In this document: positions 35,739 to 53,996 of the stretch, one piece after another
Layout: the number at the start of each line of letters is the position of its first letter
How positions within the stretch are numbered: position 1 is the stretch's first letter
Assembly (NCBI RefSeq): GCF_004343075.1
Contig: NZ_SLXP01000007.1
Location: 1-64,000, forward strand
Reading direction: 5' to 3'
Length of the DNA stretch: 64,000 nucleotides
Source of the DNA: Rhodovulum marinum
GTDB lineage: Bacteria > Pseudomonadota > Alphaproteobacteria > Rhodobacterales > Rhodobacteraceae
The notes under the pieces: model-generated
Databases searched by the model: none
What the model was told of the DNA's origin: nothing
The model's input: only the letters and a program-made list of their open reading frames with translations
Program-made: the position numbers and the translations under genes

Positions 35739-37157
35739 ATGGCCAAGAAATACGATGCCGGTGTCAAGGAATACCGGTCGACCTATTGGGAACCCGATTA
35801 CAAGGTGAAGGACAGCGACGTCCTGGCCGTGTTCAAGGTGATCCCGCAGCCCGGCATCGACCGCGAGGAGGCCGCGGCCGCCGTCGCCGCCGAAAGCTCG
35901 ACCGGCACCTGGACGACGGTCTGGACCGACCTGTTGACCGATCTGGACTATTACAAGGGCCGCGCCTACGCGATCGAGGACGTGCCGGGCAGCGATGACG
36001 CGTTCTACGCCTTCATCGCCTACCCGATGGACCTGTTCGAGGAAGGCTCGGTCGTCAACGTCTTCACCTCGCTGGTGGGCAACGTGTTCGGCTTCAAGGC
36101 GGTGCGCTCGCTGCGGCTGGAGGACGTGCGCTTCCCGCTTTGGTTCGTGACCACCTGCTTTGGCCCGCCGCACGGCATCAATGTCGAGCGCGACAAGATG
36201 GACAAGTATGGCCGCCCGCTTCTGGGCTGCACGATCAAGCCGAAACTGGGCCTGTCGGCCAAGAACTACGGCCGCGCCGTCTATGAATGCCTGCGCGGCG
36301 GCCTGGATTTCACCAAGGACGACGAGAACGTCAACTCGCAGCCCTTCATGCGCTGGCGCGACCGCTTCGACTTCTGCCAGGAGGCGATCGAGAAGGCCGA
36401 GAAGGAAACCGGCGAGCGCAAGGGTCACTACATGAACGTGACCGCGCCCACCGTGGAAGAGATGTACAAGCGCGCCGAATACGCCAAGGAGATCGGCACG
36501 CCGATCATCATGTCGGACTACCTGACGCTGGGCTGGGCGGCGCATAACTCGCTGTCCAAGTGGTGCCGCGACAACGGCATGCTGCTGCACGTGCACCGCG
36601 CCATGCACGCCGTGATCGACCGCAACCCGAATCACGGCATCAACTTCCGCGTTCTGACGAAACTGCTGCGCCTTCTGGGCGGCGACCACCTGCATTCGGG
36701 CACCGTCGTGGGCAAGCTGGAAGGCGACCGCGAGGCGACGCTGGGCTGGATCGACATCATGCGCGACCGCTACATCAAGGAAGACCGCTCGCGCGGGATC
36801 TTCTTCGACCAGGACTGGGGCGGGATGCCGGGCGTGTTCCCGGTGGCCTCGGGCGGCATCCACGTGTGGCACATGCCGGCGCTGGTCTCGATCTTCGGCA
36901 ACGACTCGGTCCTGCAGTTCGGCGGTGGCACGCTGGGCCATCCCTGGGGCAACGCGGCGGGCGCCGCGGCGAACCGGGTCGCGCTGGAGGCCTGCGTTCA
37001 GGCCCGCAACGAGGGCCGCGAGATCGAGAAGGAAGGCAAGGACATCCTGATCAACGCGGCCAAGCACAGCCCCGAACTGAAGATCGCCATGGAGACGTGG
37101 AAAGAGATCAAGTTCGAGTTCGACACCGTGGACAAGCTGGACACCCAGCACCGCTAA
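35739..37157 (+). CDS. cbbL: Ribulose-bisphosphate carboxylase large chain, form IA (green-type)
   Basis: 472 residues. Catalytic Lys167 in TIKPKLG and the carbamylated Lys193 in DFTKDDEN are present, with the loop-6 [10 protein letters not shown] and the C-terminal DTVDKLD. The sequence is the green-type form IA found in sulfur-oxidising and hydrogen-oxidising bacteria and in Rhodobacter capsulatus form I, not the red-type IC of R. sphaeroides. It has the CbbQO activase genes after it and no carboxysome shell genes, which is the IAq class. It fixes CO2 on RuBP. Confidence 0.97.
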
Positions 37158-37177
37158 TCGCTTAGGGAGAGAGAAAC

Positions 37178-37531
37178 ATGAGCGTTCAGGACTACACATC
37201 GCGCCTGTCCGACCCGGCCAGCCGCAAGATGGGCACCTTTTCCTACCTGCCGGAAATGGACGACGCGCAAATCCGCAAGCAGGTGGAATGGATCGTGAAA
37301 CACGGCTGGAACCCGGCCGTCGAACACACCGAGCCCGAGCATGCCACGTCGAACTACTGGTACATGTGGAAGCTGCCGATGTTCGGCGAAACCGATGTCG
37401 ACGCCATCCTGGCCGAGATCAAGGCCTGCGCCGAGGCCAATCCCGGCAACCATGTCCGCCTGATCGGGTACAACAACTTTACCCAGAGCCAGGGCGCCAA
37501 CATGGTGGTCGTCCGCGGCAAGATGGTCTGA
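37178..37531 (+). CDS. cbbS: Ribulose-bisphosphate carboxylase small chain, form IA
   Basis: 117 residues, starting [42 protein letters not shown] (core fold), with [21 protein letters not shown] and [18 protein letters not shown]. This lacks the long C-terminal hairpin of red-type small subunits, in agreement with the green-type large subunit. It begins 20 bases after cbbL with a GGAGAGAG site. Confidence 0.96.
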
Positions 37532-37586
37532 TGCACCTTGGCCCGCCGCGCCGCACGCGCGGCGGGCCGATCGCAGGGAGGCGAGG

Positions 37587-38390
37587 ATGACGGATGTGAT
37601 CGAGCAATACCGCGTGACGGGCGAACCCTATTACCGGCCCGTCACCGACGAGGTGGCGATGTTCGAGGCGGCCTATGCCGCCAAGATGCCGGTGATGCTG
37701 AAGGGGCCGACGGGCTGCGGCAAGACGCGCTTCGTCGAGCACATGGCCTGGAAGCTGGGCAAGCCGCTGGTGACGGTCGCCTGCAACGAGGACATGACCG
37801 CATCCGACATCGTGGGCCGGTTCCTGCTGGATGCGGACGGCACCCGCTGGCAGGACGGGCCGCTGACATTCGCCGCGCGGCACGGCGCGATCTGTTACCT
37901 GGACGAAATCGTCGAGGCGCGGCAGGACACCACCGTGGTGATCCACCCGCTGACCGACAACCGGCGCGTCCTTCCCTTGGAAAAGAAAGGGGAAATCCTG
38001 CGCGCGCACCCGGATTTCCACCTCGTGATCTCGTACAACCCGGGCTATCAAAGCCTGATGAAGGACCTGAAACAGTCCACCAAGCAGCGCTTTGGCGCGC
38101 TGGATTTCAACTATCCCGAACATGCCGTCGAGGTCGAGATCGTGGCCCACGAATCCGGCGTCAACGCCGAGGACGCGGACAAGCTGGTGTCGATCGCCGA
38201 ACGCGCGCGCAACCTCAAGGGGCACGGGCTGGACGAGGGGATTTCCACCCGGATGCTGATCCATGCGGGCAGCCTGATGGCGCAGGGCATCGCGCCGGTC
38301 GCGGCCTGCCAGATGGCGCTGGTGCGGCCGATCACCGACGACCCCGACATGCGCGACGCGCTTGACGCCGCCGTCACGACCTATTTCTGA
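37587..38390 (+). CDS. cbbQ: RuBisCO activase AAA+ ATPase, CbbQ
   Basis: 267 residues of the MoxR AAA+ clade: Walker A GPTGCGKT at 40-47, Walker B ICYLDEI, sensor 1 [17 protein letters not shown] and arginine finger region STKQRFGAL. CbbQ hexamers with CbbO remove inhibitory sugar phosphates from form I and form II RuBisCO. GGGAGGCGAGG precedes the ATG, 55 bases after cbbS. Confidence 0.95.
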
Positions 38391-38393
38391 GCC

Positions 38394-40685
38394 ATGTCGA
38401 CGCTCGACGAGTTTGCCGAGCTGACCGCCGAGCTGGACGCGGCCCAGCGCGAGGTGCTGGACCAATGCTGGCCCGATGCGGTGCGGGTGCTGTCGCCCCG
38501 GGGCCTGGATAACTGGCTGAAGGGGGCGGTGGCGCTGGGTCACATGGGGCGGGGCGATCACATCGTGCGCACCTGGATCGAGGTCGTGCCGGTGCTGGCG
38601 CGCGACCTGGGCGAGGATATCGTGCCCGATTTCGCGCAGACGCTTCTGGGCTTTGCCTCGCGCACCTCGGGCGCGGTGATCGAGCGGGTGATCGCGACCG
38701 CCCCCACCGCGTCACGCCGGTTGTCGGACCCCGACCTGTTCCTGGCCTACCTGCAGTTGCTGAACCAATTGCTGGCGCAGGCGCCCCGCGGTCTGCGCCC
38801 CATGCTGGAACACCTGGAAGAGTTGCTCGACGTCCTCACGCTGGGCGGGTTGCGCCGTTGGGCCAACTGGGGCGCGCAGGCGCATCGCACCGATTTCGAG
38901 GAACTGACCCGCTATTTCAGCCTGGAAAGCGCCGAATCACAGGCGATCCTGCAAAAGGAACGCAAGGGAACGCTGTTCGTCGATATCCACCGCCGGATCG
39001 GGATGTATCTGAGGGCACTCTGGGGCCGCGATTTCCTGATGCGCCCGACCGCCGGCGATTTCGAATCCCGCGAGGGCGCGCGGCCCTTTATCGCCGATTT
39101 CTTCCTGCACCTGCCGGATGCCTATGACGACTGGAACGGCGTGCCGGGGCTGGATCTGTACCGCGCCGCCGCGGCGCATGCCTCGGCCCATGTGGTCGCC
39201 ACGACCAGGGCGATTCCCGGCGACGAGTTGAACGCGCTGCAACGGGCCTGTGTCGGGCTGATCGAGGATGCGCGGATCGAGGCGCTGGCCATTGCCCGGT
39301 TCCCCCGCCTGCGCGACCTGTGGCGGCAGTTCCACGCGCCCACGGGCGACGGGGCGATGGGGGCGCAGTTCGACCGGATCGCCTTGGCGCTGCTGGACCC
39401 GGAGTGGGAAACCGACGACCCGGTGGCGGCATGGGCGCGTGGGGCGTTTGCCGGGGCCGACCTGTCGGATGCCGCAATATCGCGCGACCTGGGCCTGCAG
39501 CTGGCGCACCAGTTGCGCGACCGCCCCTATTCGGCCTATCGCGACGTGCAGGGCGCGCCCTATCGCGACGACAACCGCTATATCTGGGAATTCGAGGAGA
39601 TCGACTGGGAGAAGGGCTTTGCCCCCGCGCCGGAACAGGTGCGGAAATACGTCAGCGTCTCGGAAATGGTCAACGAGGTCGAGGTCGAGACCGCGGGCGA
39701 CGACGCCCAGGAAATCTGGGTCGCCGAACACGAACTGTTCGACGATGACGGTCTGTCCTTCAACGAGAAGGAAGGCAAGGAACCCACCGCGCCCCCCGTC
39801 CCCTATGACGAATTCGACTACCAGATCCAGATGGCGCGCCCGGCCTGGGCGACCGTGCTGGAAAAGCGCCCGCGCCTGGGCGACCCGGCCGAGATCGAGA
39901 CGATCCTGGCCGAGAACCGCAAGCTGACCCAGCGGATGCGGCACCTGCTGGACGCGATGCAGCCCCAGGGCGTGCAGCGCATCCGCAAGCTGGAGGATGG
40001 CGACGAGATCGACATCAACGCAGCCCTCGGCGCCATGATCGACATCCGCATGGGCCGCCAGCCCGACCCGCGGGTGATGATGCGGTCGGTCCGCAAGGTG
40101 CGCGACATCGCGGTGATGACGCTCCTGGACCTGTCGGAATCGACGAACGACAAGGTCGCCGGGCAGGACCAGACCGTGCTGGACCTGACCAAGGCGGCCA
40201 CCGTCCTGCTGGCGGAAGCCATCCACAAAGTGGGCGATGCCTTCGCGCTGCACGGGTTCTGTTCCGACGGGCGGCACAACGTGTTCTACCAGCGCTACAA
40301 GGATTTCGATCAGCCCTGGAACGAGATGCCCAAGGCACGGCTGGCGGGGATGCAGGGGCAGTTGTCGACGCGCATGGGGGCCGCGATCCGGCATGCGGGG
40401 GCGCACCTGTCGCGCGTCGCGGCGGCGAAAAAGCTGATGCTGGTCATCACCGACGGGGCGCCCGCCGATATCGACGTGCGCGACCCGCAATACCTGCGCC
40501 AGGACGCCCGCGCCGCGGTGCAGGAGGTCGCCAAGCAGGGCGTGATCCCGTTCTGCCTGACGCTGGACCCGCGCGCCGACAGTTACGTCGCGCAGATCTT
40601 CGGGCAGCGGAACTTCTTCATCCTCGACAACGTGGAACGTCTGCCCGAGCGGCTGCCCCAGCTTTATGCCGGGCTGACGCGCTAG
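38394..40685 (+). CDS. cbbO: RuBisCO activase adaptor with VWA domain, CbbO
   Basis: 763 residues. N-terminal helical region (about 1-450), an acidic linker (about 425-470, EVEVETAGDDAQEIWVAEHELFDDD), and a C-terminal VWA domain (about 575-763) with MIDAS D-L-S-E-S near residue 579 (LLDLSESTND) and TDGAPADIDV. CbbO links the CbbQ ring to RuBisCO through the VWA metal site. It begins 3 bases after cbbQ and ends the operon. Confidence 0.95.
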   Translation: MSTLDEFAELTAELDAAQREVLDQCWPDAVRVLSPRGLDNWLKGAVALGHMGRGDHIVRTWIEVVPVLARDLGEDIVPDFAQTLLGFASRTSGAVIERVIATAPTASRRLSDPDLFLAYLQLLNQLLAQAPRGLRPMLEHLEELLDVLTLGGLRRWANWGAQAHRTDFEELTRYFSLESAESQAILQKERKGTLFVDIHRRIGMYLRALWGRDFLMRPTAGDFESREGARPFIADFFLHLPDAYDDWNGVPGLDLYRAAAAHASAHVVATTRAIPGDELNALQRACVGLIEDARIEALAIARFPRLRDLWRQFHAPTGDGAMGAQFDRIALALLDPEWETDDPVAAWARGAFAGADLSDAAISRDLGLQLAHQLRDRPYSAYRDVQGAPYRDDNRYIWEFEEIDWEKGFAPAPEQVRKYVSVSEMVNEVEVETAGDDAQEIWVAEHELFDDDGLSFNEKEGKEPTAPPVPYDEFDYQIQMARPAWATVLEKRPRLGDPAEIETILAENRKLTQRMRHLLDAMQPQGVQRIRKLEDGDEIDINAALGAMIDIRMGRQPDPRVMMRSVRKVRDIAVMTLLDLSESTNDKVAGQDQTVLDLTKAATVLLAEAIHKVGDAFALHGFCSDGRHNVFYQRYKDFDQPWNEMPKARLAGMQGQLSTRMGAAIRHAGAHLSRVAAAKKLMLVITDGAPADIDVRDPQYLRQDARAAVQEVAKQGVIPFCLTLDPRADSYVAQIFGQRNFFILDNVERLPERLPQLYAGLTR

Positions 40686-40702: not shown

Positions 40703-40728
40703 CCGCCCCGGCCGTTCGGCCGGGGCGG
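40703..40728. terminator. Bidirectional hairpin between cbbO and the cytochrome gene
   Basis: A perfect 11-base stem CCGCCCCGGCC / GGCCGGGGCGG with loop GTTC, 17 bases after the cbbO stop. TGTCGTTTCC follows. It is well placed to end transcription of both convergent units. Confidence 0.75.
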
Positions 40729-40769
40729 TGTCGTTTCCAGTGAACGCAGCGGGTCCCGCCCGCCCCGGA

Positions 40770-42344
40770 TCACTCCTGGGACAGCGTCGCGATATAGGCG
40801 TAGATGTCGCGCACTTCCTGCGGGTTGCGGGCGTTGTAGGTCATGTTGCCGCGGGCCTTGGGATCGCCGAGGTATTCACGCAGGAACTCGGTCGGGTTCT
40901 GCGAGTATTCGACGACCAGGTCCTCGGTCCAGACCAGGCCCGCTTCGCCGGCCGCGATCATCGACTTCGAATAGCGGAACCCTTCGACGCTGCCGGCAAC
41001 GCGGCCGGGCGTGCCGTACTGGTTCGGACCGACGCGGGCGCCGTTGCCGGCCAGCATCTCGCCCGAGGGGCTGGTGACCACGTGGCAGGTGGCGCACTGG
41101 CGGAACGCCTTCTCGCCAGCGACCGGATCGCCGGTGAAGGCGGCCGCGACGACGGCGGCTTCCTCAGCCGGGGCTTCCTCGGCAGCGGCTTCCTCAGCCG
41201 GGGCCTCTTCGGCAACGGCTTCCTCGGCCGGGGCCTCTTCGGCAACGGCTTCCTCAGCCGGGGCCTCTTCGGCAACGGCTTCCTCAGCCGGGGCCTCTTC
41301 GGCAACGGCTTCCTCGGCCGGGGCTTCTTCGGCAACGGCTTCCTCAGCCGGGGCTTCTTCGGCGACGGCTTCCTCGGCCGGGGCCTCTTCGGCGGCGGCT
41401 TCCTCGGCCGGGGCTTCTTCAGCGGCGGCTTCCTCAGCCGGGGCTTCTTCAGCGGCGGCTTCCTCGGCCGGGGCCTCTTCGGCGGCGGCTTCCTCAGCCG
41501 GGGCCTCTTCGGCGGCGGCTTCCTCAGCCGGGGCCTCTTCGGCGGCGGCTTCCTCAGCCGGGGCTTCTTCGGCAACGGCTTCCTCAGCCGGGGCCTCTTC
41601 GGCGGCGGCTTCCTCGGCCGGGGCCTCTTCGGCGGCGGCTTCCTCGGCCGGGGCCTCTTCGGCCGGGGCCTCTTCGGCAACGGCTTCCTCGGCCGGGGCC
41701 TCTTCCACCAGCAGGGCCGACTTGCCGGCCAGGGCCGCGGCGCGCTGGGCAAGATCGGCGTATTCGGCAGCCAGCGCCGCCGCCTGCTCGGCCAGCGTCA
41801 TCGCGCTTGCCGCGGCTTCGGGCGTATCGACGACCGGGGCTTCGACAGCTTCCATCCCCGGCGGTTCCGGCTGCGGGTTGATTTCCGACGACACAGCCTC
41901 GGCCGGCACTTCTTCAGCGACGGCTTCTTCGGCCGGGGCTTCTTCAGCAGCGGCTTCCTCGGCCGGAGCTTCCTCGGCAGCGGCCTCTTCAGCCGGGGCT
42001 TCTTCAGCAGCGGCCTCTTCAGCCGAGGCTTCCTCGGCCGGGGCTTCCTCGGCCGGAGCTTCCTCGGCAGCGGCTTCCTCTGCCGGGGCTTCCTCGGCGG
42101 CGGCTTCCTCTGCCGGGGCTTCCTCGGCGGCGGCTTCTTCGGCCGGGGCTTCTTCGGCGGCGGCTTCTTCGGCCGGGGCCTCTTCCGCAACGGCTTCCTC
42201 GGCGGGCGCCTCGACCGCGGCCGCTTCTTCGACGGCTGCCGGTTCGGGCTTCGGCGACCCACTATAGGTCACGGCATAGAACGCGAGACCGATCGCCGGT
42301 GCGGCGACGATCAGGCGGATCAGGTTCTGCTTGTTATCGGCCAT
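40770..42344 (-). CDS. Membrane-anchored c2-type cytochrome c with a giant Ala/Pro/Glu repeat linker (cytochrome c-y-like)
   Basis: 524 residues. Residues 8-27 form an uncleaved-looking membrane anchor (LIRLIVAAPAIGLAFYAVTY). Residues 38-150 and 214-397 are tandem decapeptides A-P-A-E-E-A-(A/V)-A-E-E, broken at 151-213 by a different helix-prone stretch (TLAEQAAALAAEYADLAQRA). The haem domain is 405-524: C-A-T-C-H at 417-421, axial ligand Met501 in GNMTY, and a cytochrome c2-like pattern (GEKAFRQCATCHVV, GPNQYG). Cytochrome c-y of Rhodobacter has the same plan with a linker of about 70 residues; here it is about 370. It should carry electrons between the bc1 complex and oxidases or reaction centres. 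GGATGGAAG precedes the ATG. Confidence 0.88.
   Translation of the reverse strand: MADNKQNLIRLIVAAPAIGLAFYAVTYSGSPKPEPAAVEEAAAVEAPAEEAVAEEAPAEEAAAEEAPAEEAAAEEAPAEEAAAEEAPAEEAAAEEAPAEEAPAEEASAEEAAAEEAPAEEAAAEEAPAEEAAAEEAPAEEAVAEEVPAEAVSSEINPQPEPPGMEAVEAPVVDTPEAAASAMTLAEQAAALAAEYADLAQRAAALAGKSALLVEEAPAEEAVAEEAPAEEAPAEEAAAEEAPAEEAAAEEAPAEEAVAEEAPAEEAAAEEAPAEEAAAEEAPAEEAAAEEAPAEEAAAEEAPAEEAAAEEAPAEEAAAEEAPAEEAVAEEAPAEEAVAEEAPAEEAVAEEAPAEEAVAEEAPAEEAVAEEAPAEEAVAEEAPAEEAAAEEAPAEEAAVVAAAFTGDPVAGEKAFRQCATCHVVTSPSGEMLAGNGARVGPNQYGTPGRVAGSVEGFRYSKSMIAAGEAGLVWTEDLVVEYSQNPTEFLREYLGDPKARGNMTYNARNPQEVRDIYAYIATLSQE
41154..42233 (-). repeat. 30-base tandem repeat arrays coding the acidic cytochrome linker
   Basis: Two arrays, 41154-41705 and 41895-42233, are built of a 30-base unit (plus strand core GGCTTCCTC[A/G]GCCGGGGC, then [C/T]TCTTCGGC[A/G]). 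Adjacent units differ at only a few bases, mainly at silent positions and at the Ala/Val codon, so the array has probably grown by slippage or unequal recombination. A few units are 15 bases, half the decapeptide. The 189 bases between the arrays (41706-41894) are unique sequence. Confidence 0.92.
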
Positions 42345-42727
42345 CTTCCATCCTTTTTCTGTCCGCTGCCCCCGGAGGGCGCGCGCCTCCCGTGGCAGGA
42401 CGTCCTCCTGCGGGTTCTCTGGCGGGAGCCCCAGTTCTCTCCCGCGTCCGGCCGTTCAAGCACCTGACCACCCGCAAGGTCACGGACCTTCGGGACGGCA
42501 CATTCGCTGTCGGCCGAGGCGGACAATAGCGCGCCCCTTCCCGGATGACAGCCCGCGATCCCTGCCTGCGACGCTGATACGCGCCCCGGGCGCCTTGCAA
42601 TGGCCGGTTCACTGGATGTTACGGGCTTTTTCGGCACGATCCCGCGCCCCGCGCCGGCCACGCGGGCCGGATCACGCACCCGGCGCGATTCGCAATCAGC
42701 AATCGGATCGGCGTTGATGAGGGGGAG
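42345..42727. other. Intergenic region upstream of the cytochrome gene
   Basis: 383 bases between the cytochrome start and the tRNA-Arg 3' end. It should contain the cytochrome promoter, but I see no clear boxes. Open frames here have no ribosome sites or familiar residues, so no gene is called. A short hairpin CCGCGCCCCGCGCCGGCCACGCG lies at 42640-42665. Confidence 0.4.
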
Positions 42728-51522: not shown

Positions 51523-52265
51523 CCGCCCGCCTGGCGCAGATCTGGCGCCACCCCATCAAGGGGCACGGCGCAGAGGCGCTGCAGGCGGTGACGCTGGAAA
51601 CCGGGCGGACGATGCCCTGGGACCGGACCTGGGCCGTGGCGCACGAAGCGGCGCGGACCGACGGCACCACGTGGGCGCCTTGCGCGAATTTCTCGCGCGG
51701 GGCCAAGGCGCCGGAACTGATGGCGATCATGGCGCGGCTGGACAAGGCGGCGGAAACCGTCACCCTGACCCATCCCGACCGGCCCGAGATCACCTTTTCC
51801 CCCGAGACCGAGGCCGACCGCTTCCTTGACTGGGTCGCGCCGCTGATGCCGGCCGACCGCGCCGCCTCGGCCCGGATCGTGCGGGCGCCCGGGCGCGGCA
51901 TGACCGACAGCGATTTCCCCTCGGTCAGCCTCCTCGGGCTGGCCTCTCTGCGGGCGCTGTCCGACGCGGTGGGGCGCGACCTGGACCCGCGCCGGTTCCG
52001 CGGCAATTTCTGGATCGAGGGGCTGGCCCCCTGGGCGGAATTCGACTGGATCGGCCGCCGGATTCGCCTGGGCGAGGCCGAACTGGAGGTGCGGGAACGC
52101 ATCGGGCGCTGCATGGCGACGACCGTGGACCCCGAGACGGGCAAGCGCGACACGGACACGCTGGGCGCGCTGGAACGCCACTGGGGCCATACAGACCTGG
52201 GCGTCTATGCCGAGGTGATCCGCGGCGGGCGCGTGACGCTTGGCGACGAGGTGACCGTGCCATGA
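51519..52265 (+). CDS. MOSC-domain protein
   Basis: 248 residues. N-terminal MOSC beta-barrel-like region (LAQIWRHPIKGHGAEALQ) and the MOSC core with DLDPRRFRGNFWIEG, WIGRRIRLGEAELEVRERIGRCMATTVDPETG. The conserved Cys of the ERIGRC motif may hold sulfur or molybdenum cofactor. The substrate is unknown. Overlaps yidC and engB by 4 bases on each side. Confidence 0.88.
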   Translation: MTARLAQIWRHPIKGHGAEALQAVTLETGRTMPWDRTWAVAHEAARTDGTTWAPCANFSRGAKAPELMAIMARLDKAAETVTLTHPDRPEITFSPETEADRFLDWVAPLMPADRAASARIVRAPGRGMTDSDFPSVSLLGLASLRALSDAVGRDLDPRRFRGNFWIEGLAPWAEFDWIGRRIRLGEAELEVRERIGRCMATTVDPETGKRDTDTLGALERHWGHTDLGVYAEVIRGGRVTLGDEVTVP

Positions 52266-52915
52266 GCACCCTGCCCTTCCCCCTGGCCCCCGAGCCCGAC
52301 ACCGCCACCGCCGAACGCGGGCGTAAGCTGTTCGCGGGACAGGTCGATTTCCTGAAAGGTGTCGTGGCGATGGACGGGCTGCCCCCCGCCGACCGCGCCG
52401 AGGTCTGCTTTGCCGGCCGCTCGAACGTGGGCAAGTCCAGCCTGATCAACGCGCTGACCAACCGCAAGGGGCTGGCGCGCGCGTCGAACACGCCGGGCCG
52501 CACGCAGGAAATCAACTATTTCACCCTCGGCGACAGTCACTTCCTGGTCGACCTGCCCGGCTATGGCTATGCCGAGGCGCCGGTCGCCGTGGTCGAGAAA
52601 TGGCAACGCCTGCTGAAAGCCTATCTAGCCGGGCGCCAGACCCTGCGCCGGGCCTTCGTGCTGATCGACGCGCGGCACGGGGTGAAACCCGTGGACGAAG
52701 AGATCATGGGGCTGCTGGACAGCGCGGCGGTGACCTTCCAGGCGGTGCTGACCAAGGCCGACAAGGTCAAGGCCAAGGACATGGACCGCGTGCTGGACCA
52801 GGTGCGCGGTCGGCTGGCCACCCATCCGGCGGCCTTTCCCGAAATCGTTCTGACCTCATCGGAAAAAGGCGACGGAATCGCCACGCTGCGCGCGATCATC
52901 GCCGGGATCGCCTAG
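52262..52915 (+). CDS. engB: Ribosome biogenesis GTPase EngB (YihA/YsxC)
   Basis: 217 residues. G1 GRSNVGKSS, G3 DLPGYGYAEAP, G4 TKADK and G5 SSEKGDG are intact. It is needed for late 50S subunit assembly. ATG overlaps the MOSC stop. It is the last gene before the large hairpin/poly-C region. Confidence 0.94.
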   Translation: MSTLPFPLAPEPDTATAERGRKLFAGQVDFLKGVVAMDGLPPADRAEVCFAGRSNVGKSSLINALTNRKGLARASNTPGRTQEINYFTLGDSHFLVDLPGYGYAEAPVAVVEKWQRLLKAYLAGRQTLRRAFVLIDARHGVKPVDEEIMGLLDSAAVTFQAVLTKADKVKAKDMDRVLDQVRGRLATHPAAFPEIVLTSSEKGDGIATLRAIIAGIA

Positions 52916-53020: not shown

Positions 53021-53186
<166 letters not shown>

Positions 53187-53264: not shown

Positions 53265-53996
53265 TCAGACATGCTGACCGGCATTCACCTCGATCTCGGT
53301 GCCCGTGACATAGCTGGAATCCGCCGAGCACAGGAAAAAGATCACGCTGGCCACCTCCTCGGGTTGACCCAGCCGCCGGAGCGGCAGCCCCGCGACGATC
53401 TTCTCGGTGCCGGGCGACAGGATCGAGGTTTCCACCTCGCCCGGCGCGATGGCGTTCACCCGCACCCCCATCGGTCCGAAATCATGCGCCATCTCGCGGG
53501 TCAGCGCCGCCAGCGCCGCCTTGGACGTGGCATAGGCCGCCCCCGCGAAGGGGTGCACCCGGCTGCCCGCGATCGAGGTCACGTTGACCACCGCGCCCCT
53601 GGCCGCGGCCAGTTCGTCCTGCAAGCCGCGGGCCAGCACGATGGAGGCAAAGAAATTCACGTTGAACACGTGCCCCCAGGTGCGCAGGTCGGTTTCCAGC
53701 GTGTTCAGCCGCCCGCCATCTTCGGTCTTGGGCGAAATCCCGGCATTGTTGACCAGCGCGTGCAGCTTGCCCCGGGGCAGCTTGCCGCGGATCACCTCGA
53801 TGGCGCCCTTGGTCGCGGCGGCATCGGCCAGGTCGATCTGGATGTGGTTCTCGGCCCCGCCGGGCCAGGGACAGCGCGGGTCGAAGGGATGGCGCGAACA
53901 GGTCAGAACCCGCCAGCCCTCGGCCGAAAACCGTTTCACGGTGGCATGCCCGATGCCGCGGCTTGCGCCGGTCAGCAGCAGAATCTTTTCTTCCAT
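53265..53996 (-). CDS. Short-chain dehydrogenase/reductase (SDR)
   Basis: 243 residues: cofactor loop [14 protein letters not shown], catalytic Ser in VTSIAGS, Tyr and Lys in YATSK, and the C-terminal [11 protein letters not shown]. Classical SDR length. The substrate is unknown. Convergent with engB; the start is divergent from argB, with a 113-base gap. Confidence 0.9.

Follow-up and report, generated by a model that had tools for sequence, protein, structure and literature searches.

A long acidic tether with a conserved central helix in a probable cytochrome c2m of Rhodovulum marinum

What kind of electron carrier is held to its membrane by a chain of several hundred acidic and alanine residues? 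This question is raised by a gene in the window, by which we mean the whole 64,000-nucleotide stretch of DNA that was analysed here (Rhodovulum marinum, contig NZ_SLXP01000007.1). The gene codes for a c-type cytochrome with a single haem in which a membrane anchor, a linker and a haem domain follow each other. This order of parts had already been recognised in a reading made from the sequence alone, and it was borne out in the present analysis (Table 1). Genomes and loci are designated by G and L numbers where they have to be told apart.

Table 1. Features of the c2m-type gene, its product (aa, residue numbers) and the adjoining region.
Feature	Position in the window	Strand	Details
Cytochrome c2m-type gene	40770..42344	-	524 aa, 52.8 kDa without haem, ATG start
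N-terminal membrane anchor helix, aa 5-26	42267..42332	-	AlphaFold2 helix; conserved residues in 14 orthologues
Whole linker, aa 28-404	41133..42263	-	377 residues, net charge -125
Membrane-side acidic arm, aa 28-183	41796..42263	-	pLDDT mostly <50
Conserved lead-in VEAPVVDTPEAAASAMT, aa 167-183			Within the membrane-side arm, whose repeat ends at about aa 150
Conserved central helix (zipper-like segment), aa 184-213	41706..41795	-	Heptad motif; sequence identity; AlphaFold2 helix
Haem-side acidic repeat arm, aa 214-404	41133..41705	-	Tandem array 41155-41693; pLDDT mostly <50
c2-type haem domain, aa 405-524	40773..41132	-	PF00034; PDB match 1cxa
Haem-binding motif CATCH, aa 417-421	41082..41096	-	C417, C420 and H421 invariant in 14 orthologues
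Met501, presumed sixth haem ligand	40842..40844	-	Invariant; aligns with the Met of KGKMTF in 1cxa
Presumed cbbLSQO (RuBisCO form I and activase-type genes), convergent neighbour	35739..40685	+	Open reading frames
11-bp GC hairpin between the convergent ends of cbbO and the c2m-type gene	40703..40728	.	

The N-terminus would attach the protein to the membrane as a putatively uncleaved anchor, and N4, N7, L8, R10, L11, A14, P16, A17 and G19 were invariant in this region among 14 orthologues. The role of Met501 as haem ligand is presumed. An AlphaFold2 model computed with 14 sequences as input had a mean pLDDT of 45.5, with low values in both linker arms; apart from the haem domain and the anchor, it contained only the central helix and a short helix beside the haem domain (residues 394-400). 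The linker is composed of 42% Ala, 33% Glu and 10% Pro, with 10-13% Pro in its arms, and its net charge agrees well with the roughly 120 negative charges counted earlier. At the DNA level two tandem arrays with a period of 30 bp were found, one of 18 copies (41155-41693) and one of 10.2 copies (41897-42203). The sequence-only reading had described the linker as nearly all repeat. Its length and acidity were described correctly; however, about 60 residues in the middle (approximately 150-213) are non-repetitive and hold a conserved helix of 30 residues which had been overlooked. Just before the lead-in of this helix lies the motif INPQPEPPG (41856-41882, minus strand), which among the 14 full-length copies was present in the window protein and L010 only.

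Sequence variation within the repeat was used to identify the frame under constraint. Across the 41155-41693 array, heterozygosity averaged 0.021, 0.058 and 0.223 at positions 1, 2 and 3, respectively, of the minus-frame codons, and adjacent copies of the 18-copy array (17 codon-aligned) showed 22 synonymous versus six non-synonymous codon differences. Since the variation sits at the third position of minus-frame codons, it is the peptide that is kept. The overlapping antisense open reading frame (40728-42467, plus strand) was therefore rejected as a real gene and is considered a shadow.

Orthologues of the tethered protein were detected in all 16 Rhodovulum genomes. Two of them are incomplete, one being cut by a contig end (G002) and the other interrupted by an assembly gap (G010), and these were excluded from the length statistics. 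The 14 full-length orthologues, the window protein included, comprise 455-574 amino acids with linkers of 308-427 residues (mean 361, standard deviation 32) and net charges of -89 to -136. The named matches nearest to the window haem domain were those of Rv. euryhalinum, Rv. adriaticum, Rv. bhavnagarense, Rv. visakhapatnamense and Rv. imhoffii, whose contigs belong to the genus genomes searched here, and this places the window in Rhodovulum. Acidic residues of the haem-side arm follow each other with a period of 5 or multiples thereof in the window protein and L010-L014, of 13 in L019-L021 and of 14 in L022; almost no period was detectable in L015-L018 (best correlation <=0.34). The acidic fraction per arm is 0.28-0.45 across the orthologues, and both arms together contain between zero and five basic residues (K, R, H). 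Length and acidity of the tether hence persist while the repeat unit and the sequence drift between species. A second conserved tether module, TREAxTGSEEPxIGGD, was observed in five orthologues (L014-L018), where it follows an amphipathic Ala-rich stretch; it is absent from the window protein. The module is located on the haem side of the central helix in L015-L018 and on the membrane side in L014, and the L015 segment gave no Pfam match above cut-off.

Occurrence beyond the genus was assessed by matches to the haem domain in 147 genomes, i.e. the genome of the window and those of relatives (E <= 1e-20). At this threshold each of the 16 genus genomes gave two matches, the tethered protein and a c2-like protein, and the c2-like partners sampled from seven of the 16 (L002, L044-L047, L049, L055) all possess a signal-peptide-like start. 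Among the 94 loci L024-L117, read with the first ATG as start, six encode the tethered protein (L038-L043, with L038 cut by a contig end), all of them in Rhodovulum, and further matches in other genera were judged by the length of the open frame alone. Three long open frames were rejected as candidates for further long-linker proteins. The 484-aa frame of G075 turned out on reading to be a signal-peptide c2, as did the 578-aa frame G010 C36 (L047), and the 535-aa frame of G069 places a cytochrome c in frame with a different protein. The latter locus (L120, G069:C31) is an N-terminal haem-NirK fusion, in which a c-type cytochrome domain shares one open frame with what we take to be a copper nitrite reductase-like protein.

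On the genome, the c2m-type gene converges with genes which, judged from their sequence, we take to be cbbLSQO, with a presumed start of cbbL. This cbb neighbour is kept in five of six loci (L038-L042, of which L038 stems from a MAG of Rhodovulum) and was not found within 10 kb of the Rv. imhoffii c2m locus (L043). The GC hairpin between the convergent ends is possibly a shared terminator; such a call is weak on its own, as three terminator-like sites were found versus 3.2 expected by chance, and is supported by the position between convergent genes. Elsewhere in the window, a run of 65 C (53096-53160) lies between a gene for an EngB-like GTPase (52262-52915) and one for a short-chain dehydrogenase (53265-53996, minus strand). 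Such a run is unusual in a bacterial genome and might stem from slippage or from an error of sequencing or assembly.

The haem domain was then used to place the protein among the c-type cytochromes. When searched alone, it matched PF00034 with 24.1 bits (cut-off 21.3), and the best match in the PDB was cytochrome c2 1cxa (E 4.6e-34), which presumably is that of R. sphaeroides. Scans of the full-length protein against Pfam and NCBIfam yielded composition-driven matches to Extensin, HC2 (the latter above cut-off), Rv3852 and histone-like families, and one match to cytochrome c-550 that was below cut-off. A tree was calculated from 40 rows comprising the 16 tethered-copy domains, seven soluble c2 proteins of Rhodovulum, c2 of related genera, and the cy-like and SoxD-like domains of the window genome. 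The soluble c2 of Rhodovulum and the 16 tethered domains formed one group (98/98) located among the c2 of related genera, and all c2-type rows were split from the cy-like and SoxD-like rows (100/97), the former being a single row on a long branch whose cy label is our own judgement. Within the group, the tethered domains did not make up one clean clade (2 changes). The Rv. imhoffii tethered copy (L022, G009) was placed with its own soluble c2 (L044) at a weak 87/77, and the soluble c2 L047 was found beside the other 15 tethered domains at 85/18. Gene conversion between paralogues, or repeated origin, is possible, and conversion would account for the mixed grouping of tethered and soluble forms. 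The c2 of a MAG titled Rhodovulum sp. SAT37 (L064, PALT01000033.1) grouped with Thalassobacter (94/77) and not with Rhodovulum; this MAG is probably misnamed.

The tether holds a conserved helix at its centre. In all 15 sequences that reach it (the contig of G002 ends before), a Leu-Ala pair recurs every seven residues four times (L184, L191, L198 and L205, with an additional L212). Written as heptads, every one of the 15 sequences has Leu at d and Ala at e in each of the four turns, the a positions are Ala, Tyr and Ala in 14, 15 and 15 of 15, and b, c, f and g account for most of the variation. The copy that diverges most (G010) departs from the window protein at 11 of the remaining 16 positions in the 24-residue core, but all four Leu and all four Ala residues of the pattern are kept. 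Mean pairwise identity among the 14 full-length orthologues was 80% for this segment, which was picked by eye before the comparison and whose richness in Ala inflates the figure; the haem domain and the anchor reached 72% and 69%, respectively. The segment holds four to six of the four to eight leucines present per linker and was predicted by AlphaFold2 as the sole long helix in the linker, with a modest pLDDT of 55-67 for the block.

The heptad pattern was compared with its frequency in shuffled sequences. In 20,000 shuffles of each whole linker, the Leu-Ala pattern was recovered in none for the window protein and none for L022, and Leu at every seventh position occurred once and never, respectively. 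When shuffling was confined to the segment, 495 of 100,000 sequences derived from the window protein had Leu at every seventh position and 19 had the Leu-Ala pattern; the corresponding numbers for L022 were 165 and 6 of 100,000. The pattern is thus a rare but not impossible outcome of shuffling within the segment. In 149 genomes of the family (one per genus), a search with the segment at E <= 0.001 returned the genome of the window only, with one match. Comparison with known coiled-coil families gave the Bap31 coiled coil as best Pfam match (E 0.0094 and 0.087, neither of which reached the curated cut-off), and comparison with the PDB gave designed antiparallel coiled coils and a four-helix bundle at E values of 0.056-1.7, none of which is significant. 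It is known that Ala-rich helices readily resemble coiled coils. Judged from the heptads and the model, the segment is most likely a short coiled coil that would hold two or more chains of c2m together, or link c2m to a partner. To us, a conserved helix within such a tether is new.

Taken together, the window protein is with good confidence the cytochrome c2m of its species: a duplicate of c2 that arose in the Rhodovulum lineage, is tethered by an anchor and a long disordered polyacid, and would donate electrons to the reaction centre, with the zipper-like helix of the tether most likely joining chains. The name goes back to Kimura et al. 2007 (J Biol Chem 282:6463, PMID 17197696; listed among the references of PMC5646944), who are reported to have described cytochrome c2m of Rhodovulum sulfidophilum as a membrane-bound donor to the reaction centre. 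The protein reportedly has a c2-like haem region and a deduced mass of about 50 kDa, runs at about 100 kDa on SDS gels, and phototrophic growth is said to be lost when both c2 and c2m are absent. The identification rests on this reported content together with the title of that paper; the name 'cytochrome c2m' was unmatched in the open-licence literature searched, a body of literature to which the paper does not belong. The calculated mass of the window protein (Table 1) compares with 49.9 kDa (504 aa) for L018, the orthologue from G001, which is probably Rv. sulfidophilum, and with the reported 50 kDa. PufLM and PufC were each present in 16 of 16 Rhodovulum genomes, which is only consistent with a donor role redundant with c2. 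Counting against this reading is the slight acidity of the haem domain (net -3, pI 5.2), on account of which docking by a classic positive patch is not obvious.

According to the mechanism that we propose, the single haem would take up an electron from the bc1 complex and pass it to the reaction centre, the donor role being the one reported for c2m, most likely by way of the PufC cytochrome bound to the reaction centre. The tether would keep the haem head no more than about 10-20 nm away from the anchor, and selection would act on its bulk properties, i.e. length, acidity and scarcity of basic residues, rather than on its sequence. The zipper-like helix in the middle would split the tether into two arms and most simply would join chains, giving rise to a carrier with multiple anchors and multiple heads. 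In a tentative elaboration, which we put forward as a possibility short of an even chance, c2m is an oligomer whose mid-tether coiled coil bundles two or more chains, such that several anchors meet in a common knot about 10 nm out, from which several haem heads extend on free arms of about 175 residues. If true, the two halves of a bc1 dimer could be served simultaneously by one such carrier, as could bc1 together with several reaction centres, and electrons might pass among the carrier's own heads.

Several other explanations of the locus have to be weighed against this proposal. A much shorter true linker, lengthened by misassembly of the repeat, might be suspected from two of the 16 genus genomes, whose assemblies break inside the repeat (at a contig end in G002 and an N gap in G010). 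For the class as a whole, this explanation is already refuted and its probability is close to nil: the linkers of the other 14 genomes are long, four long-linker copies (L013, L014, L017, L018) lie on contigs of 3.7-4.1 Mb, and the linkers of L015-L018 cannot be repeat artefacts because they are long yet hardly periodic. For the window, whose assembly consists of 38 contigs, the exact repeat number may nevertheless be somewhat wrong, because assemblies break in the repeat. Misassembly, as well as the existence of close relatives with normal linkers, had been named from the outset as objections to be checked, and all 14 full-length versions, including that of the window, were found to have a long linker. 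The protein had initially been grouped with the cytochromes c-y. On this account it would be a true c-y protein (CycY/CycM) whose linker has grown five-fold by repeat expansion, and its succession of anchor, linker and one-haem domain is indeed that of c-y proteins. Yet its haem domain falls with the c2 proteins of Rhodovulum and apart from the cy-like protein of the same genome (with the reservation that one cy-like row on a long branch was available), and it is 62% identical to the genome's own soluble c2. In addition, this cy-like protein is a separate anchored cytochrome of 168 amino acids with a short linker, relatives of which coexist with the tethered protein in 16 of 16 genus genomes. 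Membership in the c-y family was therefore rejected as highly improbable; as judged from the sequences, the likeness is one of shared plan, not of descent.

Two further alternatives concern the tether itself. It had been suggested to span 55 or 130 nm and to let one cytochrome serve distant complexes, in which case it would act as a long-range cable joining such complexes or spanning the lumen of intracytoplasmic membranes. These numbers stand as upper limits, the contour length of 377 residues being 57 nm as helix and 132 nm when extended, and a helical rod is conceivable in the haem-side arm of L020, which is poor in Pro (1.9 per 100). They do not stand as a working reach: the root-mean-square end-to-end distance computed for a disordered chain by means of a scaling law is about 16 nm for 377 residues as compared to 6 nm for 69. 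From this value it follows that c2m would reach neighbouring, non-touching complexes and not very distant ones. Moreover, the arms of the window protein contain 10-13% Pro and are mostly below pLDDT 50 (Table 1), and repulsion between charges would be partly screened in a salty periplasm. A cable function is therefore very unlikely. A more serious competitor, plausible but not to be called probable, is that the central helix does not self-associate and instead docks on another protein or on the membrane, thereby fixing the tether to a complex (bc1, or PufC and the reaction centre) or to the bilayer. Being amphipathic, with a single invariant Tyr and a face of Leu and Ala, such a helix could bind a groove or lipid, and the near-invariant polar residues Q187 and E194 (14 of 15 sequences each) may exceed what pairing needs. 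On the other hand, conservation of the coiled-coil type is what is seen here: Leu-Ala keeps a strict seven-residue register through four turns, and positions b, c and f vary more. The c2m protein with a tether zipper that joins chains thus remains our preferred reading.

Among known systems, cytochrome c2m of Rv. sulfidophilum is the closest. With its mass, domain and function taken as reported, it shares with the window protein the genus, the presumed membrane anchor, the C-terminal haem domain derived from c2 and a mass of about 50 kDa, and it occurs beside a soluble c2 and a reaction centre with PufC. It belongs to another species, and in L018, its probable copy, the 357-residue linker shows next to no period, whereas the window protein has a strict ten-residue repeat. 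A central zipper helix is not known to us in this protein or in cytochrome cy of R. capsulatus. The soluble c2 of Rhodovulum has the same haem domain but carries a signal-peptide-like N-terminus (146-aa precursor in the genome of the window) in place of anchor and linker. The swinging-arm linkers of pyruvate dehydrogenase E2 are also Ala-Pro-rich flexible arms that carry a head between active sites, but they are shorter than the tether described here and belong to an unrelated protein. In R. capsulatus cytochrome cy, in line with the position of the cy-like row in the tree, the haem domain is of another lineage.

Cytochrome cy (CycY) of R. capsulatus is described as a tethered single-haem carrier consisting of a transmembrane helix of 30 residues, a flexible linker of 69 residues and a haem domain of 100 residues (PMC7876108). 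With its 377 residues, the linker of the window protein is indeed about five times as long, as had been estimated from the sequence. According to the same source, fast electron transfer to the reaction centre requires the full 69 residues, but for respiration about 45 are enough (PMC7876108). Tether length is thus known to tune electron transfer in cytochrome cy, and Rhodovulum represents a natural experiment at the opposite extreme: within one genus, 14 full-length versions with drifting tethers exist beside a c2 paralogue and an anchored cytochrome with a short linker, a set that allows a direct test of how length, charge and knot of the tether determine the reach and rate of the carrier.
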